DNA of 55,797 nt from a bacterium BMS3Bbin13 (GTDB lineage Bacteria; Pseudomonadota; Gammaproteobacteria; 21-64-14): the NCBI GenBank assembly GCA_002897735.1, contig BDTW01000055.1, positions 1 through 55,797 of the forward strand, written 5' to 3'. This document shows, one piece after another, positions 15,468-32,513 of the stretch. The stretch's first letter is position 1. Each line of letters starts with the position of its first letter. The position numbers and the translations under genes were made by a program. The notes beneath the pieces were generated by a model, which saw only the letters and a program-made list of their open reading frames with translations, searched no databases and was not told the DNA's origin.

Positions 15468-16475
15468 TCAGCCTCCGACCCGAAACATTTCGACCTTTCC
15501 GGCGGGCGTGGGTATTGACCCGCGAAGCTCCGAGTAATGATTCGTGCGCCGCATCCAGCGTTCGCGCAGGAGTTGCAGGATCCCGGTATCGTCCATGCCC
15601 GAGCGCGACGGGGCGCGGAGATCCAGTCCCCCTTCGGCGAACAGACAGGTGTAAAGTCGACCCTCGGCCGTCAACCGTACGCGTGTGCAGCTTCCGCAGA
15701 ACGGTTGCGTGACCGAGGCGATGAAGCCGATTTCACCCGCGCCGTCACGGTAACGGTAACGCCGGGCGGTCTCGGAGGATCGATTCGGGGCGACGGGTTC
15801 AAGGGGCCAGAGGGCCTCGATGCGTCGGCGAACCTCTTCGGCGCTCACCAGTTCGGTTCGATCCCAGCCGTTGCCGGTGCCGACGTCCATGTATTCGATC
15901 AGGCGCAGGATGTGCCCGCTATGGCGAAAGCGTCGTGCCATCGGCACCACCTCCCGATCGTTCAGACCCCGCCGGACCACCATGTTGATCTTCACGGGGC
16001 CGAGTCCGGGGGCGGCGTCGTCGATGGCGGCGAGGATCTGCGCGGGATCGACGGTGGTATCGGCCATACGGCCGGCAATTTGCGGGTCGAGTGCATCCAG
16101 GCTCACCGTGATGCGGTGCAACCCCGCTTCGTGTAGGGTGCGCGCCGCCGTCGGGGTCAGCAACGAGCCGTTGGTGGTAAGCGCGATGTTTTCAATCTCC
16201 GGAATTGCGGCCAGTTGCGAGATCAGTACCGGCAATTCATGGCGCAGCAGCGGCTCGCCGCCGGTCAGGTGCAGCCGGCGAACGCCGAGCGCGGTGAACA
16301 GCTTCGTCAGCCGGGTGATTTCCTCGAAGCTCAGGATTTCTCCCCGGGGTAAAAAACGGAAGCCGGGGCCGAACATTTCCCGCGGCATGCAGTAGCGGCA
16401 GCGGAAGTTGCACCGATCCGTTACCGAGAGGCGCAACTCTTCGAGGGGCCGCCCAAGGGTATCTTCAATCGCCAT
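15468..16475 (-). CDS. moaA: GTP 3',8-cyclase MoaA
   Basis: This is the radical-SAM enzyme that starts molybdenum-cofactor synthesis from GTP. It has 335 aa. The N-terminal cluster is C22-x3-C26-x2-C29 (CNFRCRYC), followed by LTGGEPLLR. The second cluster uses C260, C263 and C277 (CGSC...YTC). The protein ends in the GG pair needed for activity. It supplies cofactor for the molybdoenzyme at 20217-23306. The 5' end is overlapped by a 37-codon ORF that stops within its first codons, suggesting coupled translation. Confidence 0.95.
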   Translation of the reverse strand: MAIEDTLGRPLEELRLSVTDRCNFRCRYCMPREMFGPGFRFLPRGEILSFEEITRLTKLFTALGVRRLHLTGGEPLLRHELPVLISQLAAIPEIENIALTTNGSLLTPTAARTLHEAGLHRITVSLDALDPQIAGRMADTTVDPAQILAAIDDAAPGLGPVKINMVVRRGLNDREVVPMARRFRHSGHILRLIEYMDVGTGNGWDRTELVSAEEVRRRIEALWPLEPVAPNRSSETARRYRYRDGAGEIGFIASVTQPFCGSCTRVRLTAEGRLYTCLFAEGGLDLRAPSRSGMDDTGILQLLRERWMRRTNHYSELRGSIPTPAGKVEMFRVGG

Positions 16476-17548: not shown

Positions 17549-17875
17549 TCATCCGGTCATCGTTCCCGCCTTCCCCGATATCGATCGGATGTTGGTCGAT
17601 AGCGAAAGATCGTCGACGCCGGCCAGTCGCGCCGCCAACTCCGGCAGGCCGCGCCGCATCGGGGGTTCGCCGCCGGTGATGCGCACGCGGCGCACGCCGA
17701 GCCGCGCGAAGGCACCGACCACGCGTTCGACACCGTCGAAGCCGAGCCACTCCCCCGAATCCTGAAAGTCACAGAACCCGCGCGGCAGGCAGTAGGTGCA
17801 GCGCAGATCGCAACGGTCGGTAACCGACAGCCGCAGGTACTCGATGCTTCGGCCGTAAGAATCGATCAGGGCCAC
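17549..17875 (-). pseudogene. truncated second moaA
   Basis: This is the N-terminal third of a second MoaA, distinct in sequence from the complete copy at 15468-16475. It starts at GTG 17875 (AGAGGGGG upstream) and reads ALIDSYGRSIEYLRLSVTDRC, then the cluster CDLRCTYC, then RITGGEPPMRRG (normally GGEPLxR). Homology stops after DDLSLSTN near 17590, and a stop follows 13 unrelated codons later. The whole second cluster and C-terminal two thirds are missing, so it cannot be a cyclase. It sits at the downstream end of the molybdoenzyme operon, which suggests it once belonged to it. Confidence 0.85.
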
Positions 17876-17939
17876 GACACCCCCTCTGTGAACCTTCCAA
17901 CCCACTGAACTCGCACTTCGCCCGGCACCAACGGCTTAG

Positions 17940-18094: not shown

Positions 18095-19141
18095 TCAGAA
18101 CTTCACCTGGGTCCAGAGGCCTACTTCGTTGGAGTCGATGCTGCCGTTGTCCTGCTTCTCGTGCTTGAAGGCCAGCGCCAGGACGACGTTCTTGTAGGCT
18201 TGGTACTGTGTGCCGACGTTAAAGTAGTAGTCCGTCAGGTCCGGCTGCAGGTCCTGGCTCGGCTTGGCGTAGTCGAAACGCGTGAACAGCGTGATGCGGC
18301 GCATCGGCGAGACCGAGCCCCACGCCGAGATTCCGTAGGCGTGGTCGCTGGAGGTGCTTTTCACTTGGCCCCAGTCGTAGGCCTTGAAGTACTCGACACC
18401 AACGCGGTAGCCGGGCTGCACGTAGGCGGCGACCAGGTCGAGGCGCTTGGCGGTGTGGTAAGTCGCGGTCCCGTTGTTGTCGCCGCGCTTGCCGACGTAG
18501 CCGCCCACGGCGAGGTTCAATCCGGGCATCGGCTCGACGCCGATCCGGCCCCCGACGTCCACGGTCTTGGTACGTGTCGGGTTGTGGTAACCGCCGCCGT
18601 TCACGGCGGAGAACGCGTAATTGAACATGCCGTCCTTGCCGATCAGGTGCGCGCCCCAGTCCGCGGAGTTGCCGAATTTCAGACGGTCGATCAGTGTGTT
18701 CTCCACGTAGCGGAAGCCGTAGAGACCCTCGTCGTACGGAATCCAGGGCATGTTCGCAGAGCCCAGGCGCACGGTGGCCAACGGTGAGAACTTCGCCTGG
18801 ATGTAGGCGGTCTTGATGAAGAGCTGTGTGTTGTTCTCTTTCGATTCGTACTTGAAGTCTGTGGTCAGGTGCACGGACCAGATGTCGTTGTAGCGGTGTC
18901 CGAGACTGAAATAGAAGCGCTTGACGTCCGTGCCGATCCCGTTGCTTTTAGTATTGCCCGTCTGGTGCTTATAGGTCAGGTCGCCGTACATCTTTCCGCC
19001 GACCGTGGTCATGCCGTCCCGGCTGGTCCTGAGCGCGGGGTGTTCGCCCAGACGGGCCGGACTGCTCGGCTCGGCCGCTTGCGCCACACTACCCATGCCG
19101 GCCGCTAGCAGAATCGCAGCTACTGCGGAAAATCTCTTCAT
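18095..19141 (-). CDS. outer-membrane porin
   Basis: This is a predicted beta-barrel porin of 348 aa. Residues 1-22 are a signal peptide ending AQA. The rest is made of alternating amphipathic strands with many Tyr, Gly and Asn, and the last residue is Phe (WTQVKF), as needed for barrel assembly. AGGAGA lies 7 bases before the ATG. It resembles Gram-negative porins of the phosphate-selective (OprO/P) type in pattern, but selectivity cannot be read from the sequence. As the last intact gene of the operon it may admit the substrate of the periplasmic molybdoenzyme. Confidence 0.82.
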   Translation of the reverse strand: MKRFSAVAAILLAAGMGSVAQAAEPSSPARLGEHPALRTSRDGMTTVGGKMYGDLTYKHQTGNTKSNGIGTDVKRFYFSLGHRYNDIWSVHLTTDFKYESKENNTQLFIKTAYIQAKFSPLATVRLGSANMPWIPYDEGLYGFRYVENTLIDRLKFGNSADWGAHLIGKDGMFNYAFSAVNGGGYHNPTRTKTVDVGGRIGVEPMPGLNLAVGGYVGKRGDNNGTATYHTAKRLDLVAAYVQPGYRVGVEYFKAYDWGQVKSTSSDHAYGISAWGSVSPMRRITLFTRFDYAKPSQDLQPDLTDYYFNVGTQYQAYKNVVLALAFKHEKQDNGSIDSNEVGLWTQVKF

Positions 19142-19218: not shown

Positions 19219-19533
19219 CTAGCACCCACTATTTGGATTCCTGGATGCCCACACCACGCAATACCCGCGGGGAGAAATTTTTCCTGAAACGATCGTGCAA
19301 ACCCCGGGATTCGATCGCGGATGATCGGGGTTGGGTCGGAAATGACGGCAATTCACGCACTCTTTACCGTTTACGGCATGGCCTACATAATGGACGACCG
19401 TCTTGGAAAGTTTTGCGGCTGAATTTCGTACCGATGCAAGAGCCGAACGCCCTCCCGTCCAGATTCCGAGCGATGCCGCCACGGCCGACCACAAGAATCT
19501 ACGCCGACCCAAATCGGCCGATGAACCCTCCAT
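19219..19533 (-). CDS. high-potential iron-sulfur protein (HiPIP)
   Basis: This is a small periplasmic electron carrier of 104 aa with one [4Fe-4S] cluster. The ligands are C59-x2-C62-x16-C79-x12-C92, with the family ending GYCVVW. Residues 9-30 form a twin-arginine signal (GRRRFLWSAVAASLG), which fits export of a folded cluster protein. ATG 19533 has AAGGAA about 9 bases upstream. It lies between the chaperone and porin genes in the same direction. HiPIPs usually carry electrons to a photosynthetic reaction centre or terminal oxidase, or from an oxidised donor such as iron. An extra Cys is the last residue. Confidence 0.9.
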   Translation of the reverse strand: MEGSSADLGRRRFLWSAVAASLGIWTGGRSALASVRNSAAKLSKTVVHYVGHAVNGKECVNCRHFRPNPDHPRSNPGVCTIVSGKISPRGYCVVWASRNPNSGC

Positions 19534-19594
19534 AAATTCCTTTCCTTCAACAAAGCCATCCTGAACAAGGTCGGGACATTTTCCCGCCGGGGTA

Positions 19595-20224
19595 CTAATC
19601 GGCGACCACTCCCGAGGTTTCCCCCTGCATGTCCTCGACATTCTTGATGGCTTGCGGCGGAAAATATTCGTTCACCCTGTCAAGAGCCTCATTGAGTGCG
19701 TCCGCCACGAGATGCAGATAGACACTGTTCGCACGGGACAGAAGCGATACGTACCGCCGCGGCCACTCGCTCAGAAACTCCTCCGCGAAGGTACTCCCCA
19801 ACTCGAAAAGTTCCGAATTCTCATCGGTCGATCGAGCTACGGTGGAAAGGAAGGCCAGGAGATAACCCAGATGATCCAAAGGGCGATTCGGCCCCGTCAG
19901 CAGGACATCCGCATTGAGCCGCGAGACATCGAATCCGATGGTTTCATACCAGGAAACGAGCCCATCCCCCCCGTTGTAACGGGGGGGTGGAAAGTACCAG
20001 TAATCCCGGAGTTCCCGGGCACCCAACATCACGTGTCGATAGGGAGGAATATAGCGCCCGGACCGGGGTATGCAGAAGGTGTCGTAAAAATCCTGCCGCG
20101 CCTCGCCCGGATCCAGCCGCTCTCCCGACGCGGATTGCAATATGCTCGAAGTCCGCTCGTCGGGCGGCTGTAGCAACAAGGCGGCGGCCGCACGCAACTG
20201 CTCGGTAACACCCGGATCAGACAC
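19595..20224 (-). CDS. TorD/DmsD-family molybdoenzyme chaperone
   Basis: This cytoplasmic chaperone of about 209 aa would hold the Tat-exported molybdoenzyme while cofactor is inserted. GTG 20224 has AAGGAG upstream and overlaps the end of the catalytic gene by 8 bases. The all-helical pattern and motifs DFYDTFCIPRSGRYIPPYRH and Y-x-x-x-GFD resemble the TorD family. Its coupling to the catalytic-subunit gene makes a dedicated chaperone very likely. Confidence 0.82.
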   Translation of the reverse strand: MSDPGVTEQLRAAAALLLQPPDERTSSILQSASGERLDPGEARQDFYDTFCIPRSGRYIPPYRHVMLGARELRDYWYFPPPRYNGGDGLVSWYETIGFDVSRLNADVLLTGPNRPLDHLGYLLAFLSTVARSTDENSELFELGSTFAEEFLSEWPRRYVSLLSRANSVYLHLVADALNEALDRVNEYFPPQAIKNVEDMQGETSGVVAD

Positions 20225-23200
20225 CCTGCGTCTCCTTCTCCAACCGTGCACGCGTGTCATAGAACACGATGCTGCCGCCGGTAAGATCCATGAGCGACAT
20301 CTGCCACACATCGGGATCCCGCCGCATGATGGGGTTGAGGAGAATCCCCATGCGTCTTACCCGGTCACCCTCGATGCGTTTTCCTCCCACACTGTATTGC
20401 GTTGCGCCATAGCCCCAGTGTCCATACCCAACGCTGAAGGTAATGACGCCGGGTCGAATCCCCTGGATAACCCGTGCCCGGCCCCGGCGCCTGCCTTCGG
20501 GCGTCACCACCCACACGTAATCGCCGTCGAGGATGCCGAGGTGTTCGGCGTCTTCCGCGGAAACCTCGATACCGTTGTCGGGCATGATTTCGCGAATGGT
20601 GTAATTGGATACCAATCGAGAATGGCTCTGCAGGGCGCCCTTGAAGGTGATGATGGTGAGCGGCCATTTCTCCGGTGGATCCAGTTTGTCCAGAGGCGTA
20701 CCCAAGGCCGTCGCAGGCGTAACCCACCGGGTGGTTCCCAGATAGAGTTCTCCGGTCATGCTGTTACGGGTTATGCCGACATCCTCGGCGTAGAAATGGA
20801 GTGTCTTGCCGAAGCGGTGGGTCAACTTACCGCCTTCCCGTGCCTTCGAGTGCGGCTCGAATCGTCCCCCCCGTGCGATAAAACCCAGAACCTTCGGCCA
20901 TTGTTCGGGAGGAAGGGAGTCCTTGAAGCGATCGTGGAACGGTTTGAGATCCATGATCTCGATTTCTTCGGCGGTGACCTCCGGTACCTCGTCATCCGGA
21001 TGGCCCGCGGCGAGGGCCACGTTGGCGCAGGCCTTGAGATACCAGTCCTCCTTACGGTTGAGCGGCCACCACTTCCCGTTTTTGTCCCGAATCGCTTTGT
21101 CGCCGAATCCGGGCATGTCCAGGCGTTTGGCCACATCGATGAGGAAGGCCTCCAGACACATGTGCCTCCCGTCCGGGGTCTTGTGGGTCAATTCCACGAC
21201 GGGCCAACGCATGTACGTGCCCTTGGTCAGAACCGTGGGCAGCGTGCCATCCACGTTCCAGCGTTCGAGAAAACTGCCGTCGGGAACGATGTAGTCGGCA
21301 TACATGCTGGTATCCCCGACCACGATGTCGGAGGCGATAATCAGCGGAACATTCCTGGGATCCTTCATCATCTTGATGATTTCCGGGTTTCCCTGGCCGG
21401 GCACGCTGTAGAAGGGCGTCGCCATATTCCACATCAGGATGTCGATGCCGTAGGGGTATTTCTGCAACCCGGACGGCAACACCTCGGTGTACATGGCAAA
21501 GCTGAAGGGCCACCAGGGACGCTTGGCGGGGTAGGGGTTCTTACCCGCCTTGACCAGGGCCTGATATTCGCTGGTGTCCTCGTAACGCACACCCTGGCGG
21601 GTAATCATGACCCCATAGGCGACACCTTTCGCCTCCGGGACATCGACATTGTCATACAATCCTTTCTTGTAGCTCCAACTGCCGCCGCCGGCGGTAAGCC
21701 CTCCGGTCCAGTTCATATTGCCGACCAGAAGATTGAGCAGCAGAACGGCCACCCCGTTGTAATAACCGTTGGGATGCTTGACCACGCCGCGATACATGGT
21801 GCTGACCGCTTGGCGCCCATAGCTGGTAAATTCTCGCGCCAGCTCGATCATGCGCTCCTTGCTCACTCCGCAAATAGAGGAGTACTCATCCAGGGAATGC
21901 ATTTCGGCGGACTCGCGAATACGGGCAAAGGCCGTTTTGACCCGGATTCCGTTCACCTCCCCGGCATATTCCATCCGGGCGGTATCCGCGGCCCCGGCTC
22001 GCGCAGGACGCCCCGCAGGGTCGATGACCACGCGGTCCGCGGCGCTATCGCCCTTGAAGCCACCCAGCCCGGCCGCTTCGGAAGTCAGGAAACGACCGTA
22101 CTTTGGATGTTTCTCATCGACTATGATCAGATGCGTGGCATCGGTGTGGGACAATTCGCCGGCCGCCTCGGCCGCCTTCCGGGTGGGGTGGGAAAGATAA
22201 GCCGCATCGTAACGGCGATTCTCGATGATCCAGCGGATCATGCCCAGCGCCAGGGCCCCGTCGGTGCTCGGCTTGATGGCCACCCAGGACGCCCGGTCTC
22301 CGATGACGCCTCCACGGCTGAGGTGTGGATCCACTACGACATATTTCAGCCCGTCCGGCTTGGCACGCGCATGTGCGGCGTATTTCCCATGGGTCTGCAT
22401 CGGAAAATTGGCATCGCCGGGCTGGGTGCCCCAGTAGATGATGAACTTGGCATCGGTCACGTCCGGCTGGGTCATGTGCTTGCCGGGAAACACCTGGTCC
22501 GTCGCCACGTGATGGCTCAGCTCGCATACATTGACATGATCGTCCACGTTGACGCTGCCGAAGGCCTGGCCGAAGCGAACGACGAATTCCTTGCGCGCAC
22601 CTACGGTGCGCCCACACTGCAGAACAAACCCGTTGGTTCGGTGTCCCAATTCCGGCGCGGCGGGATTCATCAGTTCGTTTCTCTTCGCATAGAGACCCCC
22701 AAAGCCCGTCACCTCGAACGATTCGCTTGCCGGATCGCCCGTATCGGCAAAGATCTTGCCGCCATCGACCACTTCACGGATCAGTTGCTCCCAACTGATC
22801 GGCTGCCACTTGCCGCTCCCCCGGGGACCCTTGCGCTTCAAGGGCGAGAGGACCCGATAGGGGTCGTAGGCACTCTCGATACCGGCGTTGCCCCGGGCGC
22901 AAACGGTGCCGGGGTGCGCGGCGGTCCGGATAAACGGAACGCTCATGCTGGTGTAGTCGATCAAGGTGTTCGGGTGGTACGGGTTGCCGATAATGCGCTG
23001 CACCCGCCCCGTCTTGCGGTCGATCTTGACTCGCAGACCACAATTGCTGTGGCACTGCTGATCGGTCGTATGGCGCAAGATCCATTGGGGATTGGGCTTG
23101 AGTTCCCCGGTGGTTACATCACGGAGCCATTCCGGGGTATCTGAATTGCCATAGATGGGATGCAGTGCCTTGCGTCCACGATTCCGATAGGATACGACAT

Positions 23201-23306
23201 CGACGATCGTTCCCCCGAATCCTCCGAGGCCCACCCCAACGCCGCCTATCGCCAATGCGCCGAGAAAGCCGCGGCGGGTAATCGGCGCGAAAGGTTCCTT
23301 AGCCAT
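20217..23306 (-). CDS. TtrA-like molybdopterin oxidoreductase, catalytic subunit
   Basis: This is a periplasmic DMSO-reductase-family enzyme of 1029 aa. A Tat signal (TRRGFLGALAIGG) lies at residues 10-30. The cluster motif is D82-x2-C85-x3-C89-x46-C136; the first position is Cys in typical TtrA but Asp here. CARGNAGIESAYDPYR and GKWQPISWEQLIREVVDGG match tetrathionate reductase TtrA closely in pattern, and C261 in HVNVCELSH occupies the Mo-ligand position. Length fits TtrA (about 1020 aa), not ArrA or ArxA (about 850). The start at 23306 has GGAGG upstream and overlaps the NrfD-like gene. Substrate is unproven: tetrathionate, or another sulfur, selenium or arsenic oxyanion. Confidence 0.88.
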   Translation of the reverse strand: MAKEPFAPITRRGFLGALAIGGVGVGLGGFGGTIVDVVSYRNRGRKALHPIYGNSDTPEWLRDVTTGELKPNPQWILRHTTDQQCHSNCGLRVKIDRKTGRVQRIIGNPYHPNTLIDYTSMSVPFIRTAAHPGTVCARGNAGIESAYDPYRVLSPLKRKGPRGSGKWQPISWEQLIREVVDGGKIFADTGDPASESFEVTGFGGLYAKRNELMNPAAPELGHRTNGFVLQCGRTVGARKEFVVRFGQAFGSVNVDDHVNVCELSHHVATDQVFPGKHMTQPDVTDAKFIIYWGTQPGDANFPMQTHGKYAAHARAKPDGLKYVVVDPHLSRGGVIGDRASWVAIKPSTDGALALGMIRWIIENRRYDAAYLSHPTRKAAEAAGELSHTDATHLIIVDEKHPKYGRFLTSEAAGLGGFKGDSAADRVVIDPAGRPARAGAADTARMEYAGEVNGIRVKTAFARIRESAEMHSLDEYSSICGVSKERMIELAREFTSYGRQAVSTMYRGVVKHPNGYYNGVAVLLLNLLVGNMNWTGGLTAGGGSWSYKKGLYDNVDVPEAKGVAYGVMITRQGVRYEDTSEYQALVKAGKNPYPAKRPWWPFSFAMYTEVLPSGLQKYPYGIDILMWNMATPFYSVPGQGNPEIIKMMKDPRNVPLIIASDIVVGDTSMYADYIVPDGSFLERWNVDGTLPTVLTKGTYMRWPVVELTHKTPDGRHMCLEAFLIDVAKRLDMPGFGDKAIRDKNGKWWPLNRKEDWYLKACANVALAAGHPDDEVPEVTAEEIEIMDLKPFHDRFKDSLPPEQWPKVLGFIARGGRFEPHSKAREGGKLTHRFGKTLHFYAEDVGITRNSMTGELYLGTTRWVTPATALGTPLDKLDPPEKWPLTIITFKGALQSHSRLVSNYTIREIMPDNGIEVSAEDAEHLGILDGDYVWVVTPEGRRRGRARVIQGIRPGVITFSVGYGHWGYGATQYSVGGKRIEGDRVRRMGILLNPIMRRDPDVWQMSLMDLTGGSIVFYDTRARLEKETQGV

Positions 23307-24510
23307 TTGATGCCACCTCCTCATTCGTATGCGTTATCGGCGTCTTTTCCTCTTCCGGCTTTACCGAGCTGTAGGGGAGAGCCACCCATACAAAGGCCAA
23401 CAGGCCGACGCAGAGCACCCAGTCGTAAATCAGATCGGCGAGCATGCCGCCTGGCATCACATACCAGTAATAACCGGCACCGCTCCTTGGAAGCGCCTGC
23501 CCGGCGATAAGTACCGCGAAGCGCAACGCAAATACACCCATCAAGGCGCTCGCCGCGCATACGCTAACCACCCAGGGATTCTTGCGCAGCCTGCGGGAGA
23601 TCAGCAACACGGCCGACACTACGGCACCGCCCCAGAACCACCAGCCCCAGGACAGCCACCAATAGGGATGGTCCAGCGTCCAGAAGGCGCGGCGAAGCTC
23701 CACCGTGCCGTAATTCCAAGCGTATTGATGCCATAGCAACCACAAGACGGCGGCGGCCAGGGAACCCAACCACATCCAGCGGATGTGGTGCGCATCGGCC
23801 CGGGCGGATTCTCGGGTCGCCGAAAGATAGCTCGCCGCCGGCAGCATCAGCCACAGGAAAGCCGCACCTCCGGCGATGGCGCTGGCGAAAAACACCGCGG
23901 GGACAAAGGCACTGCTCCACAACTCCACGCCGTGCTCGGTCATCAGGAAAATCGGCGAATAGAGAATGGCGAACAACGCGACGATGACCCCGAAGACCGT
24001 GATACCGCGCCCGAACACCGGACAGCCCAACGGACTGAAACGCCTCACCCACAAGGTGAAGATGTCGCCGATCACCTGTTGCCACCGGGGGCGCCCCTCG
24101 AGGGTGGCGACGATCTGCGGCCTCAGGACCGACATGCCGAGCCACCAGGCCAGCACAATGAACAAGGGGAGGAAAATGACGCCCAGCTTGATGATGGCGG
24201 TACCCATGTTGCGCCAACCGAAGGTGGGATCGCCGAGACCGTAGATGTATATATTCCAGAAGTGCCCCGGCTGTTCCATTTCCACCACCGGGTTGAACAA
24301 ACCGGCTATTCCGAGGGCCGAAACCATAGGCAGGGAGAAACGATGCGCGGGACGATCGGTGCCCGCACCGTGCAACTGTCTCCAGGCCCAGAACAGGAAA
24401 ATCGCTCCCGCTATGCCGAACAACGCGGAGTAGTTCGCCAGCAGGGGCGTGAGACTGGGTAAATGTCCGACGTTAAGGTACTCGCCGATAAACTCGTGAG
24501 GAATGCTCAT
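23299..24510 (-). CDS. NrfD/TtrC-like membrane quinone-interacting subunit
   Basis: This is the membrane anchor that links the periplasmic enzyme to the quinone pool. It has 403 aa and nine clear hydrophobic segments, the last being LIYDWVLCVGLLAFVWVALP. The hydrophobic pattern and position fit the NrfD/TtrC (PsrC) family, although it is longer than Salmonella TtrC (about 340 aa). The start ATG at 24510 overlaps the stop of the Fe-S gene (ATGA). Its stop overlaps the catalytic-subunit start by 8 bases. Confidence 0.87.
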   Translation of the reverse strand: MSIPHEFIGEYLNVGHLPSLTPLLANYSALFGIAGAIFLFWAWRQLHGAGTDRPAHRFSLPMVSALGIAGLFNPVVEMEQPGHFWNIYIYGLGDPTFGWRNMGTAIIKLGVIFLPLFIVLAWWLGMSVLRPQIVATLEGRPRWQQVIGDIFTLWVRRFSPLGCPVFGRGITVFGVIVALFAILYSPIFLMTEHGVELWSSAFVPAVFFASAIAGGAAFLWLMLPAASYLSATRESARADAHHIRWMWLGSLAAAVLWLLWHQYAWNYGTVELRRAFWTLDHPYWWLSWGWWFWGGAVVSAVLLISRRLRKNPWVVSVCAASALMGVFALRFAVLIAGQALPRSGAGYYWYVMPGGMLADLIYDWVLCVGLLAFVWVALPYSSVKPEEEKTPITHTNEEVASNG

Positions 24511-25478
24511 TCTCGCCCCCCCTCCGCCATCCGAATCAACCAATCACCGGCCGGCAGGCCCGCGTCCTCGCGACCCGTACTCCACAGGTCGGGTCTTCCC
24601 GGCAGATTGTTCTGCAGTTGATCCGTCAACGCGATATAAAACACCCGCGGCTCGTTTCCGGTCTCCGGCTTGAGCACCTGTACCGGCTCACCCCTGATCT
24701 GCCGGGTCACCGGATCATTCGGATCATTGATATCACCGAACTGGCGTGCGCCGCCGACACAGGTCTCTACGCACGCCGGCAACAGCCCCTGATCCGTGCG
24801 CTGAGCGCAGAAATCGCACTTGTCCGCCTTGTGCGTGACCGGATTCATGAACCGGGCGTCGTAGGGGCAGGCCTCCACGCAGGAACCGCAACCCACACAA
24901 CGATCATCATCCACCACGACGATTCCATCCTGCCGCTGCCAAGTCGCCCCGGCGGGGCACACCGACAGACAGGAGGGACGCTCGCAGTGATTGCACAGAC
25001 GAGGAAGGAAAGCGCGCTTGGTGAAGGGGTAACGCCCCACCTCCACGTCCGGCACCCAGGTACGGAACATGCCTTCAGGAATGTTGTTCTCAAACTTGCA
25101 GGCCGCCGTACAGGCCTGGCAGCCGATGCATTTGCGTAAATCGATGAGCATCACCCGGCGCTTGCCCTTGAATCCCCTGAAGGCAAGATCGCCGTCCTTG
25201 CGGGTATAGGCATAGACGGATTTCGAGTGATAGAACTCGTAGCCGGTGCCCGCCGGGGCGACATCGTCCGAAAAACGGCCCGGCTCGACTTCCCGGGTGT
25301 TCTTCGAAACGAGGGCGCCCGCCTTGGCCGTCCCGACCCCGGCGGCAACGCCACCGACCAGCCAGGAAAGCAACTTCCTGCGCGACAGACCCTCGGGAGG
25401 CCCTTCTCCGGGGGTCCACCTCGACTCGGAGCCGCTTGCAGGCTCCTTGGGTTTCCCACGATCCCGCTCGCTCTTCAT
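24507..25478 (-). CDS. TtrB-like ferredoxin subunit with four [4Fe-4S] motifs
   Basis: This is the electron-transfer subunit between the catalytic and membrane subunits, 323 aa. A twin-arginine signal (SRRKLLSWLVGG) lies at residues 32-43. Four Cys clusters follow: CIGCQACTAAC, CNHCERPSCLSVC, CVGCGSCVEAC and CDFC...CVETC, as in TtrB, PsrB and DmsB. ATG 25478 has GGGAG upstream; upstream in-frame codons do not look coding. It is the first gene of the operon, which is ordered B-C-A as in ttrBCA. A Tat signal on its own chain fits the TtrB type. Confidence 0.9.
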   Translation of the reverse strand: MKSERDRGKPKEPASGSESRWTPGEGPPEGLSRRKLLSWLVGGVAAGVGTAKAGALVSKNTREVEPGRFSDDVAPAGTGYEFYHSKSVYAYTRKDGDLAFRGFKGKRRVMLIDLRKCIGCQACTAACKFENNIPEGMFRTWVPDVEVGRYPFTKRAFLPRLCNHCERPSCLSVCPAGATWQRQDGIVVVDDDRCVGCGSCVEACPYDARFMNPVTHKADKCDFCAQRTDQGLLPACVETCVGGARQFGDINDPNDPVTRQIRGEPVQVLKPETGNEPRVFYIALTDQLQNNLPGRPDLWSTGREDAGLPAGDWLIRMAEGGRE

Positions 25479-25903
25479 CACCAATGCTCCCATCCACCAT
25501 ATAGTTTGATGTAGAGTAATAGCCGCCAAGGCCGAATCCCGCCTTGATTGGGATCACGAAATATGCAGATATCCGCTTTTGTGAATATTCGAAGCGGGAG
25601 GAAACCACTTGCAGTGTGGAGTGGACCCCATCGGCGGGACAGTTGGAGGCGCTTACTTGGACTTCGTTGGGCGATCATCTTTGCGTGTAGCGGCCGAGTG
25701 GAACCGCACATGAATGGCGGATAGTGCGGTGACGGGAAGATGGACGCGGAAGAATGGGCGGTGCCCCCTCCCGATCGCCAACCACTGACCACGTTCAGGG
25801 TACTTGTGCCCGTGAGTGCCGGGCCGGTGGAGCATCGGGGTCCAGGAGAACCCTGAACCGGGCGGTGGTTTAATTATTCAAATAATTGTTGTAGCATTGA
25901 AAT
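25479..25903. promoter_or_regulatory. divergent regulatory gap between the molybdoenzyme operon and arsR
   Basis: This 425-base gap holds no convincing gene. It is more AT-rich than its surroundings near both ends. Dyads visible are an imperfect GCAGATATCCGC at 25565-25576, a perfect GAATATTC at 25583-25590, and the perfect arsR operator described separately. The middle (about 25600-25860) shows nothing recognisable. No two-component (TtrRS-like) genes are present, so control of the molybdoenzyme operon must act through this gap or from elsewhere. Confidence 0.5.
25872..25887. promoter_or_regulatory. candidate ArsR operator
   Basis: AATTATT-CA-AATAATT is a perfect 7-bp inverted repeat 17 bases before the arsR ATG. 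It stands out in very GC-rich DNA and matches the AT-rich short-dyad form of ArsR-family operators. It probably overlaps the promoter of the ars operon, giving autorepression relieved by As(III). Confidence 0.7.
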
Positions 25904-26296
25904 ATGAGCGGTGTAAGTATGAACAAGGCCGTCGGCGTCTCGCTTTTGGAATGCCTCGCCTCGGGCGTACGGCTCGATGTCTTTCGGCTGCTCGTCAGAA
26001 TAGGGCCGGAAGGCATGGTGGCCGGCGAGATTGCGGAGGCGCTCGGTCTCCCGCCGTCGAATTTGTCGTTCCACTTCAAGGCGCTCACCCAGGCGGGGCT
26101 TCTCCGTGTAGCGCAGGAGGGTCGCTACCAGCGCTATCGGGCCAATATTCCGCTGATGCTGGAACTCGTCGCCTACCTCACCGACGAATGCTGCGCGGGG
26201 CAGCCGGAGGCCTGCGCGGCGTTGCGCGCCGCCTCGCCCTGCGACGAGGCCGTGCTGCCGCCCCTGACCACTTCCCGACGGAGTGCCCGCTCATGA
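25904..26296 (+). CDS. arsR: ArsR-family As(III)-responsive repressor
   Basis: This is a winged-helix repressor of 130 aa (start 25904; an ATG at 25919 is also possible). The recognition region is GLPPSNLSFHFKALTQAGLL. The inducer site seems to be the C-terminal triad C96, C97 and C104 (DECCAGQPEAC), the arrangement known from Acidithiobacillus ferrooxidans ArsR (C95, C96, C102), rather than the E. coli CVC motif in the recognition helix. The stop overlaps the arsC start (ATGA). Confidence 0.92.
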   Translation: MSGVSMNKAVGVSLLECLASGVRLDVFRLLVRIGPEGMVAGEIAEALGLPPSNLSFHFKALTQAGLLRVAQEGRYQRYRANIPLMLELVAYLTDECCAGQPEACAALRAASPCDEAVLPPLTTSRRSARS

Positions 26297-26775
26297 ACGT
26301 GCTCTTTCTCTGCACCGGAAATTCCTGCCGCTCGATCCTCGCCGAGGCCGTGTTCAATCATCTCGCTCCCGCGGGCCGGCGTGCGCTGAGCGCCGGGAGT
26401 CACCCGACAGGTAAAGTCCACCCGCGCACGCTCGCCCTGCTTGCGCACGAAGGCATTCCGATCGAGGGCCTTCACAGCAAGTCTTGGGACGACCTGCCGG
26501 TGACGCCCGACGTCGTGATCACGGTGTGCGCGAACGCCGCCGGCGAGACCTGCCCGGCGTATTTCGGCCCGGCGGTGCGCGCTCATTGGGACGTGGCCGA
26601 TCCGGCTTGCGTTACGGGTACGGAGGCCGAGATCGAGGCGGCCTTCGAGCGTGCCTACCGGATACTTCGGCGGCGGGTCGAGGCCTTCCTTGCACTGCCG
26701 CTCGATGAGTCCGGGCGGGATCGCCGGCGGCTGCAGGCCGGGCTTGCGCACATCGGCGAGCTTTTTTGTGAGTAA
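26293..26775 (+). CDS. arsC: thioredoxin-type arsenate reductase ArsC
   Basis: It reduces arsenate to arsenite in the cytoplasm. It has 160 aa and the low-molecular-weight phosphatase fold. The P-loop is C7-TGNSC-R13. C79 and C87 (VCANAAGETC) fit the relay pair of the S. aureus-type, thioredoxin-coupled enzymes (C82, C89). The ATG at 26293 overlaps the arsR stop. It is the product-forming step for the ArsD/ArsA pair downstream. Confidence 0.93.
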   Translation: MNVLFLCTGNSCRSILAEAVFNHLAPAGRRALSAGSHPTGKVHPRTLALLAHEGIPIEGLHSKSWDDLPVTPDVVITVCANAAGETCPAYFGPAVRAHWDVADPACVTGTEAEIEAAFERAYRILRRRVEAFLALPLDESGRDRRRLQAGLAHIGELFCE

Positions 26776-26802
26776 TATTCAAAGTCTTGATGGAGGATTG
26801 AA

Positions 26803-27408
26803 ATGAAAACGATCCAGATCTTCGACCCCCCTCTTTGCTGCAGCACCGGCGTGTGCGGATCCGAGGTGGATCAGTCGCTGGTGGACTTCGCCGCCACGGT
26901 GGATTGGGCAAAGCGGCGGGGTGCGCGCATCGAGCGATTCAACCTTGCCCAGCAACCGCTGGCATTCGCCGAAAACGACACCGTGAGGGTTTTTCTGAAA
27001 GAGCATGGCGATGACGGTCTGCCGTTGGTGCTGATCGAGAGCGAGATCGTGCTTGCCGGGCGTTATCCGAGCCGCGCGGAACTTGCCGGGATCGCAGGGC
27101 TCGAGGCGCCGGCGCCGGCCGCGGTGCTGTCGCCCGAGGTGAGCGAGCTGGTGGCCCTGGGCGCCGCGATCGCGGCCGGCTGTGAACCCTGCTTCAAGCA
27201 TCACTATAACGAGGCCCGCAAGCTCGGCGTGGCCCGGACGGCTATGCGCGAGGCGGCGCGCATCGGCGAAGCGGTCTGCCGGACCGGCACGAGTCACCTG
27301 GTCGAGCTTGCCGAACGACTGACGGGCGACGACTCCGAACGGGCGGCCGCCGACCGCGGGTGCGACAACGGCCGGACCACTCAGGCCGGCGCGAAGTGCT
27401 GCGGCTGA
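26803..27408 (+). CDS. arsD: ArsD metallochaperone fused to an AhpD/CMD-like domain
   Basis: It has 201 aa and two parts. Residues 1-100 are ArsD, the As(III) metallochaperone, with the binding triad C12, C13 and C18 (LCCSTGVC). Residues 112-172 look like a carboxymuconolactone decarboxylase/AhpD domain, SELVALGAAIAAGCEPCFKH, with the CxxC-x3-His signature C127, C130, H134. The chain ends in a KCCG tail. GGAGG lies 5-9 bases before the ATG. Plain ArsD is about 120 aa, so the second domain is an addition and may give redox activity near As(III). The gene meets arsA at TGATG. Confidence 0.88.
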   Translation: MKTIQIFDPPLCCSTGVCGSEVDQSLVDFAATVDWAKRRGARIERFNLAQQPLAFAENDTVRVFLKEHGDDGLPLVLIESEIVLAGRYPSRAELAGIAGLEAPAPAAVLSPEVSELVALGAAIAAGCEPCFKHHYNEARKLGVARTAMREAARIGEAVCRTGTSHLVELAERLTGDDSERAAADRGCDNGRTTQAGAKCCG

Positions 27409-27425
27409 TGGGGGGGGAGGACCGC

Positions 27426-29186
27426 GTGAAATTCCTGGAAGACCCGCCGCGATTTCTCTTCTTTACCGGAAAGGGCGGTGTCGGCAAGACCTCGCTCGCC
27501 TGCGCTGCGGCGATCGCGCTCGCCGATCGCGGCCGGCGGGTGCTCCTGGTGAGTACCGACCCGGCCTCCAACGTCGGCCAGGTGCTCGGCGTCGAGATCG
27601 GCAACCGGGTCATCGCCATCGAAGCGGTTGCGGGTCTCGCCGCGTTCGAGATCGACCCGGAGGCCGCGGCCCGCGCCTACCGCGAGCGCATCGTGGGTCC
27701 GGTGCGCGGTGTGTTACCGGACACGACCGTCAAAAGCATAGAAGAGCAGCTATCCGGAGCCTGCACCACCGAGATCGCGGCCTTCGACGAGTTCACCCAC
27801 TTGCTCGCCGACGGCGCGGCGGCGCGCAACTTCGACCACGTGGTCTTCGATACCGCGCCGACCGGTCATACCATCCGCCTCCTGCAGTTGCCGGGCGCCT
27901 GGAGCACGTTCCTCGAGACGGGCAACGGCGATGCGTCATGTCTCGGGCCGCTCGCGGGGCTCGACAAACAGCGCGAACGTTACCGGGCGGCGGTGGCCAC
28001 GCTCGCCGATCCCGATCGCACCCGCCTCGTGCTGGTGGCCCGAGCGCGGAACGCGGCGTTGCGCGAGGTCGCCCGAACCCACGAAGAGTTGGCCGCGCTG
28101 GGCCTCACCCGACAGAACCTGGTGATCAACGGTGTGCTGCCCGCCTCGGAAGCGGAAGCCCACCCGCTCGCCGCGGCGATCCGCACGCGCGAGGAGGCCG
28201 CGTTGGCGGCCCTGCCCGAAGCGCTTGCGGCGTTGCCGGGCGACGAACTCCCGCTCAAGCCCTTCAACCTCGTCGGCATCGAGCGGCTGCGCGCGTTCTT
28301 CGCCGACGAGACGAGCCCCGTCTCCGCGGAGGCGGCGATGCCGTATGCGCTCGATGCCCCGGACCTCGCGAGTCTGGTCGATCGCATCGCGGCCGACGGT
28401 CGTGGGCTGGTGATGCTGATGGGCAAGGGCGGCGTCGGCAAGACCTCGCTCGCCGCGGCGATCGCGGTGGCGCTCGCCGAGCGCGGGTTCGCGGTGCATC
28501 TCAGCACTTCCGATCCGGCGGCGCATCTCACCGAGACGCTGGACGGGTCGTCCGCGCACCTCAGTGTCAGCCGCATCGACCCCGCGGTCGAGACCGCGCG
28601 CTACCGCGAGCACGTCCTGGCGACCAAGGGCGCGCATCTCGACGCCGAGGGTCGGGCGCTGCTCGAGGAGGATCTGCGCTCGCCCTGCACCGATGAGACC
28701 GCCGTATTCCAGGCCTTCTCACGGATCATTCGAGAGGCGGACAAGCGCTTCGTGATCATGGATACCGCGCCCACCGGCCACACGCTGCTCCTGCTGGATG
28801 CCACCGGCGCCTACCACCGCGAGGTGGTCCGGCAGATGGGCGACAAGGGCACGCACTTCACGACGCCGATGATGCAACTCCAGGACGCCAAGCGTACCAA
28901 GGTGCTCGTCGTCACCCTGGCGGAGACCACGCCGGTGCTGGAGGCGGCGCGGCTGCAGGCGGATCTGCACCGCGCGGGCATCGAGCCGTGGGCGTGGATC
29001 GTCAACCAGAGCCTGGCCGCCGCCGCGCCCCGCTCGGCGCTGCTGCGCCACCGCGCCCGGGCGGAACTCGGCGAGATCGAGGCCGTCGCGCGGGAGCACG
29101 CCGTGCGCTATGCGGTGGTGCCGCTCCTCGCCGAAGAGCCGGTGGGGGTTGTACGACTCCGCGCGCTCGTGGAAGGCGCCGGGTAA
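27426..29186 (+). CDS. arsA: arsenite-transporting ATPase ArsA
   Basis: This is the soluble ATPase that drives As(III) export through a membrane partner. It has about 586 aa and two homologous halves. Walker A motifs are GKGGVGKTS near residues 15 and 333, each half with DTAPTGHT. The three metal-site Cys of E. coli ArsA have counterparts: GACTTEIAAFDE, DASCLGP and SPCTDETAVFQ. The GTG at 27426 is preferred because GGAGG lies 6 bases upstream; ATG 27408, overlapping the arsD stop, is also in frame. No arsB or acr3 gene follows. Confidence 0.92.
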   Translation: MKFLEDPPRFLFFTGKGGVGKTSLACAAAIALADRGRRVLLVSTDPASNVGQVLGVEIGNRVIAIEAVAGLAAFEIDPEAAARAYRERIVGPVRGVLPDTTVKSIEEQLSGACTTEIAAFDEFTHLLADGAAARNFDHVVFDTAPTGHTIRLLQLPGAWSTFLETGNGDASCLGPLAGLDKQRERYRAAVATLADPDRTRLVLVARARNAALREVARTHEELAALGLTRQNLVINGVLPASEAEAHPLAAAIRTREEAALAALPEALAALPGDELPLKPFNLVGIERLRAFFADETSPVSAEAAMPYALDAPDLASLVDRIAADGRGLVMLMGKGGVGKTSLAAAIAVALAERGFAVHLSTSDPAAHLTETLDGSSAHLSVSRIDPAVETARYREHVLATKGAHLDAEGRALLEEDLRSPCTDETAVFQAFSRIIREADKRFVIMDTAPTGHTLLLLDATGAYHREVVRQMGDKGTHFTTPMMQLQDAKRTKVLVVTLAETTPVLEAARLQADLHRAGIEPWAWIVNQSLAAAAPRSALLRHRARAELGEIEAVAREHAVRYAVVPLLAEEPVGVVRLRALVEGAG

Positions 29187-29888: not shown

Positions 29889-32513
29889 TCAGGTCTTTTC
29901 GTCGGGCGCGGTCACGCGCGGGGAAGGAGGCACCTCCGGGGCGGCGGTTTCGCGCCGGGGCGGGGTGTTCTCCGTTCGGGTGCCGGCGTCGGTCGGATGC
30001 TCCGGGGCCGGGCCGGGCGACGGCGGGGCGGCGGACGGCACGGGGGGGCGCGGGGTGTCCTGCGCGGCGGGCATGACCGGTTCCGGGGCCTGTGGCGGCG
30101 AGGCCGGTGCCGGCGGATTTCCACTCCCGGTCGGGGCCGTGCTTTCGGTGTGCTCGTCGGGCGCCGTGGCCCGTGGCGGTGCCGGGGGGCTTGCGGCATC
30201 GTGCCCGGGCTGCTCGGCCGGTGTGGCGCCGAGGGCGGGGTCGCGCCGGCGGCGGCGACCACCGCGGCGGCTGCGCCGCCCCGAACGCCCGGTGGATGGC
30301 GTGCCCTCCCCGGTACCGGTATCGCGCCCCTCCCGAGGGGGGCGGGCCGAAGGAGAGGTGGAGACCGGTGCGGACGGGGCACCCGCCGCGTCGGGTGCCG
30401 GGACGTTGGCACCGTTCCCGGGCACGGACGAAGCCGATCGGTTCGCATCCTGCGGCGCACGTCCCCCCTCTGCTGGCTGCGGCGCACGTCCCCCCTCTGC
30501 TGGCTGCGGCGCACGTCCCCCCTCTGCTGGCTGCGGCGCACGTCCCCCCTCTGCTGGCTGCGGCGCACGTCCCCCCTCTGCTGGCTGCGACGCACGCCCC
30601 CCCTCTGCGGGGCGATCGGCAACCCGGCCGCCACCCTGTGTTCCGGATCGCCGGGGCCGGCGGCGCGGGCCCCGGGATTCCGGAGTCCGCGCGGCCCGGC
30701 TCGCCCCGCTCCCTGTGCCTCCCCTGGCGCCGGAAGTGGGGCGTCGGGCACCGCTTGCCGGTGCCCGGGTTGCGCCTTCGTCGGGCCGTGACGCGGTGTC
30801 CGGTGTGTTGTCCCGGTCGCCGTCGTGCGGGAACAGGGTGGACCACAATCGTTGCAGGAAGCCGCCGTCACGCTGCGCCGGTACCGCCGCGGCGGGCGTC
30901 GGTGCGCGCGGGGCCACGTTGTGCACCGCCGGCGCCTCGGCCGGCTCACGGACCGTGGACGACGCCGGCTTGGCGGCGGTCGATTCCGGGGGCCGCACCA
31001 TCTGGTAGCTGAAATGTGCGGCCGGTTCTGCGGCGAGTTCGTCGGTGCGCACGCGCCGCACCTCGAAGCGCGGCGTCTCGAGCGAGGGATCCGGTACCAC
31101 CAGTATGGAGATCCGGTGGCGCTGTTCGATCTCGCCCAGGGCGTCACGCTTCTCGTTGAGCAGGTAGGTACCGACATTGACCGGTACCGTGACGACGACC
31201 CGGCCGGTATGCTCCTTCATGGCCTGTTCTTCGAGCAGCCGCAGGATCGACAGCGCAAGGGACTCCACGCCGCGGATGCTGCCCTGGCCGTTGCAGCGCG
31301 GGCACACCTCGAGTGCGATCTCGCCGAGCGAGGGGCGCAGGCGTTGGCGTGACATCTCCAGCAGGCCGAAACGGGAGATGCGTCCGACCTGGACGCGCGC
31401 GCGGTCGGCCTTGAGGGACTCGCGCAGGCGATTTTCGACTTCGCGCTGGTTGCGCACCGGGCTCATGTCGATGAAGTCGATGACGATGAGTCCGCCCAGG
31501 TCGCGTAGCCGAAGCTGGCGTGCGATCTCCTCGGACGCCTCCAGATTGGTTTGCAGCGCCGTCTCCTCGATGTCGCTGCCCTTGGTGGCGCGCGCGGAGT
31601 TGATGTCGATGGAGACCAGTGCCTCGGTGCGATCGATCACCACGGCGCCGCCCGAGGGCAACTGGACCACGCGCTGGAAGGCGGACTCGATCTGGGACTC
31701 GATCTGGAAACGCGTGAACAGCGGAACCCCGTCCTGGTAGTGCTTGAGCTTGCCCAGGTTCTGGGGCATGACTTGTTCCACGAAGTCGCGCGCCTGCTGG
31801 TAGGCCTCCGGCTGGTCGATCAGAATCTCGCCGATGTCCCCGGAGAGATAGTCCCGCAGAGCCCGGATCATCAGGTTGCTTTCCTGGAACACCAGGAACG
31901 GAGCGGGGCGCTCCGTGGCGGCCTTGCTGATGACTTCCCAGAGGTGCAACAGGTAGTCGAGGTCCCACTGCAACTCTTCGGCGGCGCGGCCCACGCCGGC
32001 GGTGCGCACGATCAGGCCCATGTCCTCGGGGATGTCGAGGGCACTGACCGCATCGCGGAGCAACTGACGGTCCTCGCCCTCGATGCGCCGCGAGACGCCG
32101 CCGGCGCGGGGATTGTTGGGCATCAGGACGAGATAGCGGCCCGCGAGGCTGATAAAGGTGGTGAGGGCCGCGCCCTTGTTACCGCGCTCCTCTTTGTCCA
32201 CCTGGACGAGGAGTTCCTGGCCCTCGTGGATGGCGTCCTTGATCTGGATGCGACCCCCGCCCTCGCCCGCCGCGGGGTCGAAATTGCTGCGCGCAATCTC
32301 CTTGAAGGGCAGGAACCCGTGGCGCCCGGAGCCGTAGTCGATGAACGCGGCCTCCAGGCTGGGTTCGACTCGCGTAACCTTACCCTTGTAGATATTGGAT
32401 TTTTTCTGCTCCCGCGAGACCGCTTCGATATCGAGGTCGTAGAGACGTTGGCCGTCCACCATGGCCACGCGCAACTCTTCCGGCTGAGTCGCGTTCATCA
32501 GCATTCGCTTCAT
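29889..32513 (-). CDS. rne: ribonuclease E
   Basis: This is the endonuclease of the RNA degradosome and rRNA/tRNA maturation. It has 874 aa. The S1 domain is about residues 35-120. Catalytic Asp303 (SIDINSARA) and Asp346 ([10 protein letters not shown]) and the Zn-link Cys404/Cys407 (CPRCNGQG) fall at the same numbers as in E. coli. From about residue 510 the tail is disordered and Pro/Ala/Arg-rich. Residues about 634-687 form a nine-residue repeat (RAPQPAEGG) encoded by a 27-bp DNA repeat. The gene is divergent from rluC with a long leader, the usual setting for rne autoregulation. Confidence 0.95.
30451..30612 (-). repeat. 27-bp tandem repeat inside rne
   Basis: The 27-base unit (TGCGGCGCACG then TCCCCCCTCTGCTGGC on the plus strand) is repeated five times identically from 30451 to 30585, and a sixth, diverged copy ends at 30612. 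Because 27 is a multiple of three, unit changes keep the rne frame and only alter the length of the disordered tail (RAPQPAEGG per unit). It is not a CRISPR array, as units abut with no spacers. Confidence 0.95.

Follow-up and report, generated by a model that had tools for sequence, protein, structure and literature searches.

A clade of TtrA-like molybdoenzymes has undergone one change from Cys to Asp at the first ligand position of the FS0 iron-sulfur cluster; the change occurred on the stem of the clade and has been fixed thereafter. One of these enzymes is encoded in the window, i.e. the whole stretch of 55,797 nt which was analysed. With moderate confidence, we propose that FS0 of this protein is an Asp-ligated [4Fe-4S] cluster of raised potential in a HiPIP-linked periplasmic oxidoreductase, which would probably work as an oxidase; ligation, potential and direction are what we infer here.

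The catalytic subunit and its aspartate

The catalytic subunit comprises 1029 aa (20217..23306, minus strand). Its ORF starts with the ATG at 23306, and the product carries a Tat signal (R11-R12). Counted from this start, the FS0 region reads H79-T-T-D82-Q-Q-C85-H-S-N-C89, with C136 following 46 residues later. Thus, the motif D82-x2-C85-x3-C89-x46-C136 of the original prediction was correct in both residues and spacing. According to alignment and codon comparison, ligand position I is occupied by Asp82 (codon GAT, 23061..23063, minus strand like all following codons), while ligands II and III are the near-invariant Cys85 (23052..23054) and Cys89 (23040..23042), and ligand IV is the invariant Cys136 (22899..22901). 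When the family profile was aligned to solved sequences, column 82 coincided with the first Cys of C-x2-C-x3-C in PsrA (2VPW) and ArrA (6CZ7). The AF2 model of the subunit has a mean pLDDT of 91.6 (86 across residues 81-90) and is folded like formate dehydrogenases, ArrA and PsrA. The position of Asp82 relative to the FS0 cluster is inferred.

A scan of genome contigs with six peptide patterns yielded 80 loci. Since only one of the patterns spans the motif, this sample was not picked for Asp alone. All 14 close members reaching the site have Asp at column 82; they are 66-92% identical to the window protein. Cys is present in 66 of the 67 other relatives (the remaining one has a gap), as well as in three plasmid homologues with 50% identity, which represent the sister group. 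The family has only five near-invariant Cys columns, namely 82, 85, 89 and 136 for FS0 and 261 for Mo, and a change was found at 82 only. As 43% of the columns within the Asp clade are invariant, the invariance of column 82 by itself is weak evidence. However, only three columns, 82 among them, are fixed in the clade with a residue that differs from the sister and also from what is otherwise conserved there. Related genomes encode this Asp by GAT or GAC, and two base changes separate GAT from the Cys codons TGT and TGC. This excludes a sequencing error near 23063, which had been named as an objection to the prediction, as had Cys in members of the same clade; there is no Cys among the members reaching site 82. 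The sequence at L008 (G057), an intermediate with 59% identity, is cut by a contig end and lacks the N-terminal half. The missing part was not found in the rest of the assembly, so that site 82 could not be read there.

In the tree, the 14 Asp sequences form one side of a branch with an SH-aLRT of 100. When the plasmid homologues were included, the Asp clade (13 sequences) and the group of Asp clade plus plasmids both received 100. Every other relative reaching the site has Cys, apart from the one with the gap, and a single change from Cys to Asp on the stem of the clade is therefore sufficient. In line with this, the suggestion that Asp marks a subgroup held true. Thiomonas delicata and Rhodopila globiformis belong to the clade, as do proteobacterial MAGs. 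Samples of the Alphaproteobacteria, the Thiomonas family and the phylum added no member above 50% identity; the matches there had 34-38%.

His79, three residues N-terminal of Asp82, had also been considered as a possible ligand of FS0. It is His in 13 of the 14 clade members, but L017 has Ala instead, and the plasmid sister combines His79 with Cys82. This makes its role as the fourth ligand very improbable.

To name the protein TtrA is too narrow. It reached 708 bits with the TtrA equivalog model NF011567, for which the cut-off is 1750 and a Citrobacter TtrA scores 2055; it also has Asp at ligand I in place of the four-Cys FS0 of TtrA. We prefer the designation TtrA-like, based on this match, the alignment and the trees; the partner subunits TtrB and TtrC are present in the operon. 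With the ArrA model NF041714 the protein reached 82 bits, far below the curated score of 1600, and the AioA model TIGR02693 gave no match at E 0.001. The predicted Mo ligand is Cys261 (22524..22526), a conserved Cys in a CELSHH loop, and not the Asp which ligates Mo in subfamily II (NarG, NxrA, EbdA). In the literature, TtrA, SrdA and the archaeal arsenate reductase are joined in one branch (PMC10100899, PMC7331816). The features of this branch, namely Mo-Cys, Tat signal, four-cluster B subunit and membrane anchor, are all found here, and the window protein is predicted to belong to the neighbourhood of this grouping. In our trees, which were calculated without SrdA or archaeal arsenate reductase, the Asp clade is separate from TtrA. 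Within the DMSO reductase family, the catalytic subunit thus falls into a distinct clade close to TtrA.

Operon structure, HiPIP and electron flow

The order of genes in the operon is ttrB-ttrC-ttrA-torD-HiPIP, all on the minus strand. The TtrB-like four-cluster iron-sulfur subunit (24507..25529) has kept all 16 cluster Cys, and the relay is therefore intact apart from ligand I of FS0. The TtrC-like NrfD-type membrane subunit (23299..24543) matches PF03916 (E 1.7e-13), and the TorD-type chaperone (19595..20311) matches PF02613 (E 6.6e-6). The last gene encodes a predicted HiPIP-type high-potential iron-sulfur protein with a Tat-like signal (19219..19641). It scored 18.4 bits with PF01355, under the gathering cut-off of 22, and E 1.2e-4 with the Iro model; its counterpart at L009 (64% identity) and the other copies of the clade show the four-Cys HiPIP pattern. 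Directly downstream of the HiPIP gene we observed a porin-like ORF without Pfam match (18095-19141), and a porin-like gene also follows torD at L010. The window also contains an intact moaA (15468-16475) adjoined by a second, truncated one of 118 aa (17549-17905), which is likely a pseudogene, and an RNase E/G-like ORF (29889-32513) whose C-terminal part contains consecutive, almost identical copies of a short repeat (APQPAEGGR).

Downstream of the catalytic gene, torD is present at every Asp locus reading that far and in the plasmid sister. Beside other relatives it is essentially absent, with a single weak match at L026, the sequence of which (38% identity, CELTHH loop) ends before site 82 and has an unsure tree position. 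Among the 13 loci readable beyond torD, eight have a HiPIP gene in the operon (the window, L009, L013, L014, L015, L016, L018 and L019) and five do not (L010, L011, L012, L020 and L022, the last of which ends before residue 82). The Cys relatives examined, including the plasmid sister, have no HiPIP in the operon. Thus, the proposal that Asp fits a HiPIP partner is supported as an association, but not as a strict coupling, which is broken by L010, L011, Rhodopila globiformis (L012) and Thiomonas delicata (L020). Since Asp had a single origin, these loci do not count as independent cases of the association. The genomes of R. globiformis and T. delicata harbour HiPIP genes at other places. At L012 (1-2412), a 188-aa ORF upstream of the catalytic gene may be a remnant of ttrC, and it is followed by a DUF4158 (Tn3-type transposase) ORF. 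A ttrB gene was not found on this contig, so the R. globiformis operon is possibly broken.

Upstream of the operon, a divergent cytochrome gene (PSCyt1) is present at L013, L015, L016 and L018. The HiPIP and cytochrome neighbours suggest that electrons leave the enzyme, which would correspond to oxidation. In our proposal, the catalytic subunit would be part of a periplasmic, membrane-anchored molybdenum oxidoreductase encoded by a B-C-A-TorD operon, usually with HiPIP. Asp82 would serve as ligand to the fourth iron in a [4Fe-4S] FS0 of the 3Cys/1Asp type. This would presumably raise the potential of the cluster and favour the passage of electrons from Mo to HiPIP; ligation by Asp or His has been stated to affect the potential of the cluster (PMC8387239). 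HiPIP or cytochrome c would receive the electrons from Mo by way of FS0 and the clusters of the B subunit, and with such an end point the enzyme is probably an oxidase.

Since the NrfD subunit has been retained, quinone exchange and action as a reductase are conceivable. Accordingly, the enzyme could be an ordinary quinol-driven reductase acting on tetrathionate, arsenate or a comparable oxyanion, with a separate role for HiPIP and with Asp as a neutral historical substitution. Besides NrfD and the complete relay cysteines, the known relatives of the branch, which are reductases (PMC10100899, PMC7331816), and the lack of HiPIP in the close plasmid sister point in this direction. However, strict retention of Asp over 66-92% identity with two codons in use, and the adjoining HiPIP gene, often accompanied by a cytochrome gene, render this unlikely.

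Regarding the cluster itself, FS0 could also be a [3Fe-4S] cluster with Cys85, Cys89 and Cys136 as its only ligands; Asp82 would then bind no iron, and the high potential would resemble that of AioA and IdrA. Three Cys are enough for such a cluster, and AioA and IdrA indeed have a high-potential [3Fe-4S] in place of [4Fe-4S] (PMC10100899). Yet column 82 is strictly Asp, a known cluster ligand and not a drifting residue, and nitrite oxidoreductase retains a [4Fe-4S] cluster with 3Cys/1Asp (PMC8387239). We regard the three-iron cluster as conceivable but doubtful, and keep the Asp-ligated [4Fe-4S] cluster as the preferred reading.

Arsenic and sulfur in the gene context

Divergently to the window operon, an arsenic operon with arsR, a thioredoxin-type arsC, arsD and arsA is located (25904..29186, plus strand; NCBIfam matches). 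Its ArsD (26803-27408) has a C-terminally fused carboxymuconolactone decarboxylase (AhpD-like) domain, and a stand-alone gene of this Pfam family lies beside HiPIP at L013 and L015, with a similar ORF at L016. At L015, arsB lies on the upstream side, and arsR together with an arsI-like gene on the downstream side; the neighbours at L019 are acr3 and an ArsC-like fragment. In the Asp clade, ars genes adjoin these three loci only. In Citrobacter freundii, C. arsenatis LY-1 and Enterobacter ludwigii Sb-9, the plasmid sister operon and arsRDABC are arranged divergently. Of 69 other relatives, for many of which the flanks are short, ars genes are located nearby at L060 and L088 only. The ars genes beside the sister group and three Asp loci point to arsenic, instead of tetrathionate, as a possible substrate. 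However, ars genes are common on islands, which counts against this link. At L014 (2-3641), genes for a PhnD-type binding protein, a sensor kinase and a sigma-54 response regulator are divergent from the operon and resemble regulation of the AioXSR/ArxXSR type. As PhnD-type neighbours are common among the Cys relatives, we dropped this trio as an arsenic-specific sign.

SoxB is encoded in six of the 14 host genomes, including that of the window, and Rhodopila globiformis converts thiosulfate to tetrathionate (PMC12542754). Thus, a sulfur substrate suits equally well by these data. As substrate, arsenite or a reduced oxyanion of sulfur, e.g. thiosulfate, is likely, with arsenic slightly favoured by gene context. 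If so, the protein could be a third, TtrA-type arsenite oxidase besides Aio and Arx, akin to the enterobacterial arsenic-island enzyme, in which ligand I of FS0 turned to Asp and HiPIP was acquired as acceptor; we consider this rather improbable. No AioA above the cut-off was found in the window genome; the genome of Thiomonas delicata has three full copies of aioA. In the genome of a 92%-identical relative, two HiPIP genes are located approximately 3 kb from an AioA gene (G148:C48, 31426-36811). Our literature search for HiPIP as a partner of arsenite oxidase gave only a general review.

Comparison with known systems

The window operon shares with Salmonella-type TtrABC the B, C and A subunits, Tat export and Mo-Cys, and its catalytic subunit is approximately 35% identical to enterobacterial TtrA. 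TtrABC differs by the four-Cys FS0, by the Mo loop CGLAYR instead of CELSHH, and by having neither a TorD nor a HiPIP neighbour. More similar is the operon on enterobacterial arsenic-island plasmids (Citrobacter arsenatis LY-1 and others; L117-L120), with 50% identity, the B-C-A-TorD order, the CELSHH loop and a divergent ars operon, but with Cys at ligand I and no HiPIP. On these Citrobacter, E. coli and Enterobacter plasmids the products carry no annotation beyond DsrO, hypothetical protein and molybdopterin-dependent oxidoreductase. The operon may encode an unrecognised arsenic respiration enzyme. The data point to an uncharacterised enzyme family common to the Asp clade and the enterobacterial arsenic plasmids, and databases name it TtrA or generic molybdopterin oxidoreductase. 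It offers a natural evolutionary experiment, in which a single ligand was changed in an otherwise unchanged relay, in a clade mostly equipped with a high-potential partner and with a Cys sister for comparison. Comparing the two would test whether FS0 ligation sets the catalytic direction in these molybdoenzymes.

AioA and IdrA have in common with the window protein an altered FS0 site, and AioA also the arsenic context, but they contain a high-potential [3Fe-4S] and belong to another family by sequence; in IdrA, Mo has no amino-acid ligand (PMC10100899). In nitrate reductase and ethylbenzene dehydrogenase, FS0 is ligated by 3Cys/1His (PMC8840923). The structure of Kuenenia NxrA shows FS0 on C67, D71, C75 and C115 (PMC8387239). 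This enzyme thus shares the 3Cys/1Asp ligation with our proposal and is an oxidase feeding high-potential haem. It differs in that Asp is the second ligand, Mo is ligated by Asp, and the protein belongs to subfamily II (PMC8387239). Hence, a 3Cys/1Asp FS0 as such is already known, while it appears to be new that Asp takes this ligand position, that it does so in a Mo-Cys branch and that it has become fixed in a clade associated with HiPIP.
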